Of a DNA stretch of 64,000 nt, positions 8,683 to 12,647 are shown one piece after another. Below the pieces are notes generated by a model. The model was not told the origin of the DNA, did no database searches, and saw only the letters and a program-made list of their open reading frames with translations. Origin of the DNA: Achromobacter xylosoxidans A8 (lineage in GTDB: Bacteria > Pseudomonadota > Gammaproteobacteria > Burkholderiales > Burkholderiaceae_B); assembly GCF_000165835.1 (NCBI RefSeq), contig NC_014640.1:5704001-5768000 (forward strand). The letters are read 5' to 3'. Position numbers and translations under genes: made by a program. Positions within the stretch are counted from its first letter, which is position 1, and every line of letters starts with the position of its first letter.

Positions 8683-8927
8683 CCATGTCTCCTCAATCTG
8701 AAGCTTGTTGTCCCGCGCACCGGGCGAGCCCCTTGATCGTATAGCGGCCCTTCGCGCCCGTGCTGCCACCTTGCGCCCGCTTTGCAATTCTTGATAGAGG
8801 GGAATCCCTGACATTCTGATAGGTGCCGATTGCTAAACATGGAAAGCCGGGGCTAGGATGTAGCAAAATATTCTTACAAACACGGGAGCGGCGATCTTCG
8901 CTTGCACGGACTCTGGGGCGAACCGCC

Positions 8928-11033
8928 ATGCCGAAACTGGCCCTGATGCGTTATCCAAAAGATCGGCTGGCCGCGCTGGCGGGCGCCAGCGGCTTGCGCG
9001 CCATACGCGAAGGCCTGCTCTGGACCCTGCCCTGCCTGCTGATCACGGCGCTGTTCCTGGTGCTGTCGGTCGTCGCCCGCCAACTGGGGCTGCCCGCCTC
9101 CGTGGTGGACCTGCTGACCGGCGTCCACGACAAGCTCTCAGGCATCATGCCGATCCTGGCGGGCACCTCCATCGGCTACATGCTGTCGTTCCGCCACCGC
9201 GTGCCGCATCTGCCGACCGCATTCCTGTGCCTGTCCTACGTGATGATCGCCGAGGGCCTGATGGCGCCCTATCCCCAGGCGGCCGCCACCCTGGTGCTCT
9301 TCATCGCCATTGTTTCGCCCCTGCTGACCGTGCCATTGATGGCCTGGCTGCACCGCCGCCGCTGGACCCAACTGGCGCCGGACGGGCTGATCACTGAAAA
9401 CGTCCGCGACACGCTGAACATGGTCGTGCCCGGCCTGCTGACGGCCAGCCTGGTCGTGCTGGCGCTGTCCGCCGCGCTGCAGATCCCCGCCGTGGCGCAA
9501 TTCAACATCCCCTTGAGCCTGGCATCGCTGGACAGCCCGTTCACCTCGGGCGCCCTGATGGCGGGATTGAACTCCCTGCTGTGGTTCTTCGGCATACACG
9601 GCTACCACGCCCTCGCCCCCCTGATGAGCGTGATGGACCAGGCGGCCATGCTGAACTCCGCCAGCCAGTCCGCCGGCTACGAAGGCATGTATGCCCTGAA
9701 CAGCACGCTGCTGGGCGCTTTCGTCTTCATCGGCGGCGCGGGCGCGACGCTGTCGCTGGTGGTGGCCATGCTGCTGTTCGCGCGCAGCGAATCCCTGCGC
9801 GTGCTGGCGCTGGCCAGCCTGCCGGTGGCGCTCCTGAACGTGAACGAAATCCTGCTGTTCGGCCTGCCCCTGATCCTGAATCCGCGCCTGCTGGTGCCGT
9901 TCATCCTGGCGCCGGTGACCAACGCCATCCTCGCGCTGGCCGTGGTGCAGCTAGGCTGGCTGCCCTCCGCGACGACCACCCTGCCCCTGACCTCGCCGGT
10001 GCTGTTCAACGCCTATGTCGCCGCTGGCGGCCATCTGGGCGGGGTGGCGCTACAGCTCACGCTGGTGGCGATAGGCGTGTGCCTGTATGCGCCCTATGTG
10101 GTCGCGCTGGAACGTCAGCGCCAGGAAAGCGCCACCGTCTACTTCAAATCGCTGGATACCACCTTCACCCGGCTGCAAGAGGAATCGCTGCTGTACGCGC
10201 ACGATCCGGTGGTGCAGACCTACGCCGACCGCGCGCGCCGCAACGCCGAGAACAGCCGTATTCGCACCATCAGCCAATACGATTTCCATCTGGAATTCCA
10301 GCCGCAAGTGTCATTGCGCAGCGGACTGTGCACCGGCTGCGAAGCCCTGTTGCGCGCCACCGGCCCCGACGGCGCGCGGCAGACGCCGGTGGAGTTCCTG
10401 CGCTGGCTCGCACAGGCGGACCTGATGCGGGAAGTGGATCTATGGGTGGCCAGGCAGGCCGTGCAGCAATGCCTGCAATGGCGCAAGCGCGACTTCGCCT
10501 TGCCGATGACCATCAACGTCACGGCTGGCACGCTGACGTCCGGCGACTACCTGGAAAAGCTGATCAAGGTGCTGGCGCAGGCCAGCGGGCAGATCTCGGT
10601 GGAGCTGACCGAAGACGCGCTGGTGGAGGATACCCAGGCGCTGCACACCGCCTTCGACCGCCTGCACGCGATAGGCGCGCGGGTCTACATCGACGACTTC
10701 GGCACCGGCTATTCGGCCTTGGGCTATCTGCACCAGTTCGAGATCGACGCGGTCAAGATCGACCGCAGCTTCGTCGTGGCGCAAGACAGCGACAGGGGCG
10801 CGCTGGTCCTGAACGGCCTGCTGCGCTTTTGCGAAGCGCTGAACCTGCAGATCGTGGTGGAAGGCGTGGAAACAGACCAGCAGCTGAAGGCGCTGGCATC
10901 CCCCGCCGAAATCATCGTGCAGGGGTGGTACTACAGCAAGGCTTTGTCGGGCGACAGTCTCATGGACTACGCGCGCCGGCGGCAGGCTGCGCCGCCGGAG
11001 CCTGCGCAGCCCTCGCCCGCCGCGCCTACTTGA
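8928..11033 (+). CDS. PTS EIIC-like membrane domain fused to EAL phosphodiesterase
   Basis: Protein of 701 residues joining a multi-pass N-terminal half (about residues 25-390) that resembles a sugar phosphotransferase EIIC permease with a C-terminal EAL domain (about residues 440-690). The EAL signature is intact: EALLR at residue 472, ELTED, DDFGTGYSALGYL at 589, KIDRSF and VVEGVET. Hydrolysis of cyclic di-GMP is therefore expected. No GGDEF domain is present. The membrane half may act as a ligand or sugar sensor rather than a transporter, since no EIIA or EIIB is nearby. I chose the ATG at 8928 at the start of the basic N-terminus; the ribosome site is weak. The 3' end overlaps the convergent SPFH gene by 8 bases. 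Confidence 0.9.
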   Translation: MPKLALMRYPKDRLAALAGASGLRAIREGLLWTLPCLLITALFLVLSVVARQLGLPASVVDLLTGVHDKLSGIMPILAGTSIGYMLSFRHRVPHLPTAFLCLSYVMIAEGLMAPYPQAAATLVLFIAIVSPLLTVPLMAWLHRRRWTQLAPDGLITENVRDTLNMVVPGLLTASLVVLALSAALQIPAVAQFNIPLSLASLDSPFTSGALMAGLNSLLWFFGIHGYHALAPLMSVMDQAAMLNSASQSAGYEGMYALNSTLLGAFVFIGGAGATLSLVVAMLLFARSESLRVLALASLPVALLNVNEILLFGLPLILNPRLLVPFILAPVTNAILALAVVQLGWLPSATTTLPLTSPVLFNAYVAAGGHLGGVALQLTLVAIGVCLYAPYVVALERQRQESATVYFKSLDTTFTRLQEESLLYAHDPVVQTYADRARRNAENSRIRTISQYDFHLEFQPQVSLRSGLCTGCEALLRATGPDGARQTPVEFLRWLAQADLMREVDLWVARQAVQQCLQWRKRDFALPMTINVTAGTLTSGDYLEKLIKVLAQASGQISVELTEDALVEDTQALHTAFDRLHAIGARVYIDDFGTGYSALGYLHQFEIDAVKIDRSFVVAQDSDRGALVLNGLLRFCEALNLQIVVEGVETDQQLKALASPAEIIVQGWYYSKALSGDSLMDYARRRQAAPPEPAQPSPAAPT

Positions 11034-11928
11034 TGCCGATAAACGGCAGCGCCGAGCCCGGAACCTGCGTGGCCGGCAGCACGCCGTCCCACTTTTCCAC
11101 CGCGTTCAGGCTCACCAGATTGGTGTTGGCGGCCAGGGCCTCGGCCTTGGCGCGGATCGCGGCCGCTTCGGCGTCGCCGCGCATGCGGATGCCGTCGGCC
11201 TCGGCCGTGAACTGCTGGCGGCGCGCGTCGGCTTCCGCCTTGGCCTTGACCACCTGGATCTCGGCCGTGATCATCGCCGTTTCCTTTTGCTGGCGGGTCG
11301 TCTCGATCTGCACCTGCGCCAGCATGCGCTGTTCGATCGAGTGTTCATAGGCCTGCGAGAAGCCGACTTCCTCGATCTGCACGCCCACCACCTGCACCGG
11401 CGCGCCTTCCATCGTCTTGAGCACGGCCGAGTTCACGTCCTGGCCCAGCTTCTGGCGCTCCTGGATGGCGCGCACCGCGGTGTACTGGCCGAACACGTTC
11501 TTCACCGAATCCGGCGTCTTGCGTTCCAGCACGCGCATCTGCAGATTGCTGATGGTGCCGTACTCCGAATACAGCTCGGCCACGTGCTCGGGCGGCACAC
11601 GGTAGGTCACCGACACGCGCAGCGTGGCCGGCTGCTGGTCATAGCTGTAGGCTTCCAGTTTTTCAAACACGAACGTGTGGTCGCGCACCGACACCGTCAT
11701 CACGTTGTCGATGAACGGGGTCTTGAAATCCAGGCCCGGTTCCGACACGCGCACCAGCTTGCCGTTGCGCAGCACCACGCCACGCTCGCCCTGATCGACC
11801 TGGAACCAGGAATCGAACGCCAGGAACAGGATCAGCACAAACAACACCGCCGTAATCACCGCGATCTTGATACCGCGCGGCTTTACAGCACCAATCGTCT
11901 TGACCATCTGGATATCTGTCGGCTTCAC
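11026..11928 (-). CDS. SPFH/prohibitin-family membrane protein
   Basis: Protein of 300 residues with a short N-terminal cytoplasmic segment, one transmembrane helix near residues 20-40 (IAVITAVLFVLILFLAF) and a prohibitin-like SPFH domain (VDQGERGVVLRNGKL onward). A long charged coiled coil rich in Ala, Glu and Gln follows at about residues 205-270. Such proteins form membrane microdomain scaffolds, often in complex with membrane proteases; the partner here is unknown. The start is a GTG at 11928 with AAGGGA about 8 bases upstream. It overlaps the stop codon of a 38-codon gene as GTGA, so translation is likely coupled. Confidence 0.88.
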   Translation of the reverse strand: MKPTDIQMVKTIGAVKPRGIKIAVITAVLFVLILFLAFDSWFQVDQGERGVVLRNGKLVRVSEPGLDFKTPFIDNVMTVSVRDHTFVFEKLEAYSYDQQPATLRVSVTYRVPPEHVAELYSEYGTISNLQMRVLERKTPDSVKNVFGQYTAVRAIQERQKLGQDVNSAVLKTMEGAPVQVVGVQIEEVGFSQAYEHSIEQRMLAQVQIETTRQQKETAMITAEIQVVKAKAEADARRQQFTAEADGIRMRGDAEAAAIRAKAEALAANTNLVSLNAVEKWDGVLPATQVPGSALPFIGIK

Positions 11929-12041
11929 TTCGAATCCCTTTCTGATTTTGAACGTTTACGGTCCGAGAGCACGGCGGCGATGCCGCGCGCCAGCAGATAG
12001 GCGACCACGGCCGCCCCAACCAAGATCAGGAAATACCTCAT
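11925..12041 (-). CDS. 38-residue single-pass membrane peptide coupled to SPFH gene
   Basis: A short reading frame beginning MRYFLILVGAAVVAYLLARG, continuing into a basic tail (DRKRSKSERDSK) and ending TGA. It encodes one hydrophobic helix (residues 3-25) with a positively charged C-terminus. A purine-rich GGGGGGGAA lies about 7 bases before the ATG at 12041. The stop codon overlaps the GTG of the SPFH gene (GTGA), the classic arrangement for translational coupling. Topology suggests the basic tail stays in the cytoplasm. I know of no assigned function; a partner or regulator of the SPFH protein is inferred from the coupling. Confidence 0.7.
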   Translation of the reverse strand: MRYFLILVGAAVVAYLLARGIAAVLSDRKRSKSERDSK

Positions 12042-12197
12042 CGTGCGTTCCCCCCCGGAAAATAAGCAGGGGATTCTATCGCGAGTGGAAGATCAAATGA
12101 ATTGTGGCGATTGTTGCGATTGAATCCGCCGGCGAAAGTAGCGCTTGCCCAATGACGGCGCTACGCTAGGCTCCTCTACATAGCAGGAGCCGAAACC

Positions 12198-12647
12198 ATG
12201 CGCCGCAAACGTTCGATGATCGTGGCCATCTTTGCCTGTGCCGTCGCGCTCGGTGCGCCGGCGCATGCCGCGCCGCCCGAAGGCAAGGGCAAGCCGGACC
12301 ATGCCGGCCAGGGCAACGGCAATGGCAAGAACAAGGGCCAACAGAGCCAGGACAACGGCGTCAGCGTCACGCTCAGCACCGCCGGCATCACCGTTTCCAC
12401 CGCGCGCAGCTACGCCGTGCAGGCGGGCGCTACCGGCTACGGCTCGCTGCCCCCGGGCATACGCAAGAATCTGGCGCGCGGCAAGCCCCTGCCTCCGGGG
12501 ATCGCCAAGAAGATGGTGCCCGGCCCCATGCTGGCGCGCCTGCCCGTGCATCCCGGATACGAATGGCGCGTCGCGGGCAGCGACCTGATCCTCGTCGCCA
12601 TCGCCACTGCCGTCGTGGCGGACGTACTCACGGGCGTGTTCAATTAG
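12198..12647 (+). CDS. CigR-family anti-virulence-regulator-like protein
   Basis: Exported protein of 149 residues. The signal peptide ends at AHAAPPEGKG, and a Gly/Asn/Lys-rich low-complexity linker covers about residues 26-55. The C-terminal domain contains the tandem PPGIRKNLARGKPLPPGI motif followed by LPVHPGYEWRVAGSDLILV and a hydrophobic end. These motifs match the family of Salmonella CigR and RcnB-type periplasmic proteins. The start has AGGAG about 10 bases upstream. It stands alone between the SPFH operon and the protease gene. The biochemical role of the family is poorly defined. Confidence 0.82.
   Translation: MRRKRSMIVAIFACAVALGAPAHAAPPEGKGKPDHAGQGNGNGKNKGQQSQDNGVSVTLSTAGITVSTARSYAVQAGATGYGSLPPGIRKNLARGKPLPPGIAKKMVPGPMLARLPVHPGYEWRVAGSDLILVAIATAVVADVLTGVFN

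Follow-up and report, generated by a model that had tools for sequence, protein, structure and literature searches.

The window analysed in this study, a stretch of 64,000 nucleotides of Achromobacter xylosoxidans A8 DNA, carries on its minus strand an SPFH (Band_7) gene preceded by a short ORF (12041–11925), the 38-aa product of which is MRYFLILVGAAVVAYLLARGIAAVLSDRKRSKSERDSK. The coordinates of both genes and of the associated features are given in Table 1. The neighbouring ORFs are (i) 8823–11033, which is convergent with the SPFH gene and encodes an EIIC sugar-permease domain fused to an EAL domain, and (ii) 12198–12647, a divergent gene of the CigR family (NF040487; 175 bits versus a cut-off of 78).

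Table 1. Features of the peptide–SPFH locus.
Feature	Position	Strand	Basis or remark
SPFH/Band_7 CDS, 300 residues, HflC/prohibitin-like, phrog_200	11026..11928	minus	PF01145, PHROGs
GTGA junction: peptide stop TGA (11927–11925) overlaps SPFH start GTG	11925..11928	minus	sequence
Membrane-peptide CDS (single helix, 38 residues)	11925..12041	minus	ATG...TGA; 42 genus rows; dN/dS 0.097 for codons 2–36
Peptide C-terminal tail, basic and variable, codons 27–38	11928..11963	minus	dN/dS 0.294 for codons 27–36
G-x(10)-G core of the membrane helix, peptide codons 9–20	11982..12017	minus	G9 and G20
Seven-G run, presumed ribosome-binding region of the peptide	12050..12056	minus	8 nt before ATG
TAGAAT, candidate -10 element upstream of both genes	12073..12078	minus	inferred

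The short ORF and its SPFH neighbour

The initial annotation had described the short ORF as a hydrophobic helix with a basic tail, preceded by a purine-rich ribosome site, and all these elements were recovered: the helix is the one carrying G9 and G20, the net charge C-terminal of G20 is +3, and the ribosome site is the seven-G run. Both glycines are invariant in the host-family peptide alignments (7 and 15 rows). G-runs of 5 to 9 nt occupy the ribosome site of the peptide in 41/42 rows of the genus alignment; a GTG start codon occurs in a single one of the 42 peptide ORFs. In the window and in two relatives with SPFH proteins 99 and 98% identical to that of the window, the lengths of the run are 7, 5 and 6, respectively; expression could thus vary through slippage at this tract. 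The ORF had also been regarded as too short for most gene finders, which holds only in part, since some database records list it as a hypothetical or uncharacterised protein, i.e. the frame has been predicted before.

The GTGA overlap of the two genes, present in the window, recurs with a GTG start and a spacing of -4 in 31/42 genus rows, and a gap of 1–3 nt is found in the remaining 11, so it is the close spacing that has been kept and not the exact GTGA. An ATG replaces the GTG of the SPFH gene in 5/42 rows, all of them among the gapped ones, which supports the start assigned to this gene. The overlap of the genes implies that both products are made from one mRNA. The TAGAAT box, a candidate -10 element, begins 33–37 nt before the ATG of the peptide in 42/42 rows, the best -35 match being at most 3 of 6 in 37 of them. 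A sigma-70 consensus scan of positions 10850–12250 did not report this box, and its single promoter-like site lay on the plus strand; a terminator scan of the same region found none.

The SPFH protein matches PF01145 (Band_7) with 140.4 bits (cut-off 23.6) and phrog_200 over residues 19–299 (E 9.9e-54; PHROGs gives no curated cut-off for this family). Its scores lie below the NCBIfam equivalog cut-offs for HflC (47.1 versus 134.4 bits) and HflK (45.9 versus 159.4 bits). The solved structures closest to a profile of this protein and eight relatives are those of HflC (the best match), prohibitin and HflK. A predicted model (mean pLDDT 77, pTM 0.50) has a helix at residues 17–38, the SPFH domain and a long helix at 192–267. 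By its sequence the protein is HflC/prohibitin-like, with a match to phrog_200, and not a flotillin. Three other SPFH-like genes were found in the 7.36-Mb genome, and no hydrophobic small ORF was detected within 150 nt of their first starts, which suggests that the peptide goes with the subfamily of the window SPFH protein.

Conservation in the genus and the host family

An SPFH orthologue was found in 42/43 Achromobacter genomes (one copy is split over two contigs) and in all 42 it is preceded by the peptide ORF. The dN/dS ratio of the peptide as a whole (Table 1) is close to that of the SPFH gene (0.080; 41 genus rows) and falls to 0.021 in the helix (codons 2–26), and the same DNA read in its two other frames gives 2.96 and 3.92. 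The peptide is thus under strong purifying selection as a protein. The two checks put forward with the initial annotation, i.e. a search for the short frame in related genomes and a comparison of synonymous and non-synonymous change, were thus both passed, and the ORF itself was borne out in 42 genus rows. A function of the RNA was also considered, through conservation of synonymous sites, and discarded, as their mean is nothing unusual in the peptide gene (0.26) when compared with the SPFH gene (0.25).

In the host family, 268 genomes were searched with a profile of seven peptides, which matched 97 genomes at E 0.1 and 67 below 1e-7; SPFH proteins at E<=1e-30 were likewise present in 67 of the same genomes. 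At these thresholds both parts occur together in 65/268 genomes, i.e. in 65 of the 69 with either of them, and each occurs alone in two; the cut-off of 1e-7 leaves out weaker matches in one genus, since the genus to which G045 and G236 belong contains six further genomes that match the peptide at E 1e-3 and have no SPFH. The SPFH genes lacking an upstream peptide are those of G127 (40% identity) and G179 (60% identity), and the peptide occurs without SPFH in G045 and G236. In G236 it is followed by a phosphatase gene. The peptide ORF of G045 (locus L121) has been retained, with ORFs judged by eye to be IS605-like in place of the SPFH gene and no SPFH match in the stretch. Among the named carriers are Alcaligenes, Bordetella trematum, B. 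hinzii and three Bordetella genomospecies, and a database protein labelled Bordetella pertussis is identical to the peptide of G158.

When 399 genomes of the order were searched with a profile, nothing convincing emerged outside the host family; the 8/399 genomes matching at E 0.01 are two of the genus and six weak matches. Within the host family, paralogous peptides of one small-genome genus (profile match 98.9%) do not adjoin SPFH genes. Among six such loci that were viewed, a Y_phosphatase3 gene lies next to the G-x10-G peptide in three (L124, L128 and L133); the neighbours are the IS605-like ORFs in L121, L130 lacks any gene of this kind, and the sequence of L126 stops too early. On a Pseudomonas paraeruginosa plasmid (L259) the SPFH gene is followed by a gene annotated as a dual-specificity phosphatase.

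Distribution on phages, plasmids and other chromosomes

Relatives of the SPFH protein outside the host family, with about 40–53% identity, were found on plasmids (81 records, best 53%), on phages (42 records, best 48%) and on gamma- and alphaproteobacterial chromosomes (to about 50%). The similarity of these top identities indicates that plasmid, phage and chromosomal proteins are about equally distant from that of the window. Peptides of 33–45 residues with one helix were observed at the SPFH start in Rhizobium, Mesorhizobium and Agrobacterium phages, as well as in Shinella, Aureimonas and Sinorhizobium replicons, Aminobacter and one more alphaproteobacterium. Their spacing from the nearest SPFH start ranges from -11 to +3, with -50 to the annotated start in Aureimonas.

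Among the named records examined, 7/16 phages and 3/9 plasmids carry such a peptide at the SPFH gene, and it is absent from the other 9 and 6, respectively. Most alphaproteobacterial chromosomes with SPFH are without it, and 17 further SPFH loci of one alphaproteobacterial order gave 0/17. A peptide with the motif was not found beside SPFH on the gammaproteobacterial chromosomes examined, on Pseudomonas-type plasmids or in jumbo phages, nor in Skarpretter, Kc166B, AD45 and SH-Ab 15599; for 43/44 of the loci called negative, no G-x10-G ORF was found within 700 bp. In jumbo phage loci L166, L245, L246, L247 and L248 a soluble ORF of 51–85 residues, located 8–9 nt before SPFH, replaces the membrane peptide. 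For viral loci L173–L244, those examined were L173–L190 and four others. A blastn search of phages with one viral peptide gene gave no match. The genes located near the phage copies (e.g. dUTPase, primase, thymidylate synthase, RNA polymerase or nicotinamide phosphoribosyltransferase) suggest that expression may be early.

The G-x10-G pattern was noticed by eye in a first set of peptides from outside the host family and was tested afterwards. Two glycines 11 residues apart are present in 11/12 of these peptides (two of which come from viral contigs); shuffled helices gave a mean of 0.97 and a maximum of 6 in 20000 trials, and other spacings reached at most 4. As a control at these earlier loci, a small membrane ORF precedes other ORFs of at least 150 codons in 0/29, 5/100 and 5/304 cases. 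The second set was obtained in four further scans of viral contigs, which yielded 228 SPFH loci, reduced to 73 non-redundant ones by removing those with >70% shared 4-mers, short proteins or little upstream sequence. A small membrane ORF lies at the SPFH start in 53/73 of them and one with G-x10-G in 47/73, which is not a prevalence, because the sample was drawn largely with peptide-carrying SPFH queries (three of the four scans; one scan comprised the best 80 of 427). When a single peptide per locus was picked regardless of the motif, 42/53 had G-x10-G instead of 47. On the same contigs, other ORFs of at least 100 codons, mechanically picked as control “genes”, are preceded by a small membrane ORF in 15/151 cases and by the motif in 1/151, and shuffling of the 53 viral peptides gave a mean of 6.5 and a maximum of 15 in 5000 trials. 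The second set is not fully independent of the first, since L348 and L298 had been encountered before as contigs L182 and L178, and L281–L290 are related to the Rhizobium phages where the motif was first noticed.

In the 47 viral motif pairs the peptide overlaps SPFH in 32 cases and lies at -30 to +10 nt in 44. The helix of the window peptide, LVGAAVVAYLLARGI, agrees with the viral consensus for the glycine region, I/L-G-x-x-V-V-A ... A/G-x-G-V. We have defined the group as peptides of about 29–67 residues with an N-terminal G-x(10)-G helix, encoded by an ORF that touches or lies near the SPFH start; the window peptide, with G9/G20 and a 4-base overlap with SPFH, falls within it. The 26 viral loci that lack a motif peptide showed no clear SPFH–peptide fusion. 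In one of the viral loci (L291) SPFH is preceded by an ORF of 96 residues in which a prepilin-like GFSLIEL stretch comes after the glycine motif; this ORF exceeded the length limit, and the locus was scored as negative. In a table for phage 44RR (PMC1524935), the number of an ORF with an N-methylation motif adjoins that of the SPFH ORF.

Alignment of the host-family profile with that of the alphaproteobacterial and phage peptides (hhalign) gave 86% probability over 23 columns, with the glycines in register, and a score of 27.1, whereas none of 300 column-permuted profiles scored higher than 23.6. When the 625 ORFs of the window were searched with a profile built from the 47 viral peptides, the peptide ORF came first, with E only 0.087, the value for Achromobacter, compared with 1.4e-4 for B. 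hinzii and 0.0038 for Alcaligenes; descent from one ancestor thus rests mostly on position and motif. Homology of the Achromobacter and phage peptides is likely, with moderate support from these comparisons.

In SPFH trees, peptide carriers are spread over many branches, with 8 changes in a tree of 69 rows and 15 in one of 105 rows, against shuffled expectations of 20.6 and 33. These counts include (i) in the first tree, L183 and L258, reset by eye from plus to minus, and L182, scored minus and later found to be plus, and (ii) in the second tree, L298 and L299, counted as plus without the motif; near-copies were also omitted from the second tree, as were 7 viral rows of very divergent sequence and 13 named rows that the first tree had contained. 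The host-family rows form one clade and are all plus (12/12 in the first tree, 8/8 in the second; G179 is outside the trees). All 12 rows of a clade that unites gammaproteobacterial chromosomes, Pseudomonas-type plasmids and jumbo phages had been called negative, although one of them, L291, has the 96-residue motif ORF. The patchy distribution of the peptide may reflect either loss in some lineages or repeated gain.

A candidate two-part membrane module and its relation to known systems

It seems reasonably probable that the product of the ORF is a genuine small protein of the inner membrane and the dedicated partner of a phage-type SPFH protein, and its most likely role, as judged from sequence comparisons, is that of a membrane subunit of an SPFH assembly. 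A two-component unit, as first proposed for this locus, is favoured by the co-occurrence in the host family, the purifying selection and the same layout elsewhere; the exact GTGA junction turned out not to be essential to it (31/42). Moreover, the recurrence of the layout and of the glycine pattern in phages and plasmids points to an undescribed two-part membrane module. According to the positive-inside rule, the peptide would cross the membrane once, with its short N-terminus outside and its basic tail in the cytoplasm (the charge of the tail is positive in 15 of 17 peptides, zero in one and negative in one), and the SPFH protein would have its N-terminus inside and its domain outside. The two glycines, separated by three turns of the helix and on one side of it, could form a smooth face packing on the N-terminal membrane helix of SPFH, so that the peptide would form part of the membrane ring in an HflK/C- or prohibitin-like cage, where it might control assembly, opening or the retained content. 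We tentatively extend this to a mobile, phage-borne two-protein membrane machine, composed of an SPFH cage and a G-x(10)-G micro-subunit, found on phages and some plasmids (the named ones proteobacterial) and fixed as a pair on the chromosomes of Achromobacter and of several species of Alcaligenes and Bordetella, which may remodel or protect part of the inner membrane, e.g. by capturing a membrane protease.

The chief rival to the reading of the peptide as an SPFH subunit is an action on another membrane protein, most plausibly FtsH, as inhibitor or decoy, in which case peptide and SPFH protein would share a target without binding each other. HflK/C partners FtsH, and HflC and prohibitin are the nearest solved structures of the SPFH protein; the phage neighbours (dUTPase, primase and others) suggest early expression, and lambda CIII is described as both an inhibitor and a substrate of FtsH (PMC1838920). 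Nevertheless, the data contain no link between the peptide and FtsH, the host-family peptide tracks the SPFH gene, and the viral peptide marks the starts of SPFH and not of other ORFs, so we regard this explanation as unlikely.

Two other explanations appear less plausible still. The overlap or 1–3-nt spacing in 42/42 genus rows, together with the overlap in 32/47 viral pairs, would be expected of a leader ORF, the translation of which sets that of SPFH through coupling while its product is functionless; a leader or arrest peptide is nonetheless rated as improbable, because the conserved part is the N-terminal helix (dN/dS 0.021), distant from the junction, and not the end, the junction-side tail being variable, and because G-x10-G recurs in unrelated DNA. 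It is equally hard to credit that the peptides form a general-purpose membrane family placed before several kinds of genes, with SPFH merely the commonest setting. The related peptides without SPFH in the small-genome genus, with Y_phosphatase3 next to them in three of six loci, are in line with such a family, but only 1/151 other ORFs of the viral contigs has such a peptide, and the 399 genomes of the order gave nothing convincing outside the host family (six weak matches at E<=0.01). The peptide as a membrane subunit of SPFH thus remains our preferred reading. A conserved microprotein at the starts of phage-type SPFH genes would be a candidate subunit with a recognisable signature, G-x10-G; the two-gene unit is defined, and can be deleted, tagged and solved. 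Its smaller product, below the size usual for annotation, accompanies a scaffold gene in phages as well as in the gene set shared by a bacterial genus.

The window peptide has no family match in Pfam, NCBIfam, PHROGs or PADLOC, and three phage peptides have none in PHROGs. Ten viral peptides gave weak PHROGs matches (best E 0.012) and Pfam matches all below the cut-off (best E 0.011; AcrZ E 0.08). Titles and abstract openings on small SPFH partners, phage SPFH proteins and Bordetella small proteins, covering few subscription journals, contain no description of the peptide–SPFH pair. In the available part of the 2009 classification, NfeD goes with SPFH1, 2 and 5, none is reported for SPFH3, 4 and 6–12, and a small peptide partner is not described (Hinderhofer et al. 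2009, PMC2636767). A 2026 survey of P. aeruginosa SPFH proteins describes NfeD operons, and the word phage is absent from the portion available (PMC13086221). According to the accessible text of a phage paper of the same year, the reason why phages carry SPFH “remains unclear” (PMC13239085).

The closest known systems include the phage SPFH proteins of phrog_200, matched by the window SPFH protein; the family name, “lipoprotein”, gives no function. AcrZ, KdpF, SpoVM and lambda CIII are short proteins with one helix or amphipathic segment that act on a larger membrane complex. Their likeness to the peptide consists in small size and one helix, and a sequence relation to it was not found. HflK/HflC, the partner of FtsH, has the same SPFH domain and single N-terminal helix as the window protein; it differs in that the HflC and HflK equivalog cut-offs are not reached by the latter and in that a separate HflC-like gene (L002, judged by eye) is present in the same genome. 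We know of no microprotein subunit of the HflK/HflC–FtsH complex. NfeD proteins are larger and have a soluble domain, and Pfam and NCBIfam scans of the flanking ORFs (8823–11033 and 12198–12647) show no NfeD. In its organisation, however, the window pair resembles SPFH–NfeD operons, in which an SPFH gene is likewise combined with a conserved membrane-protein gene in one operon.
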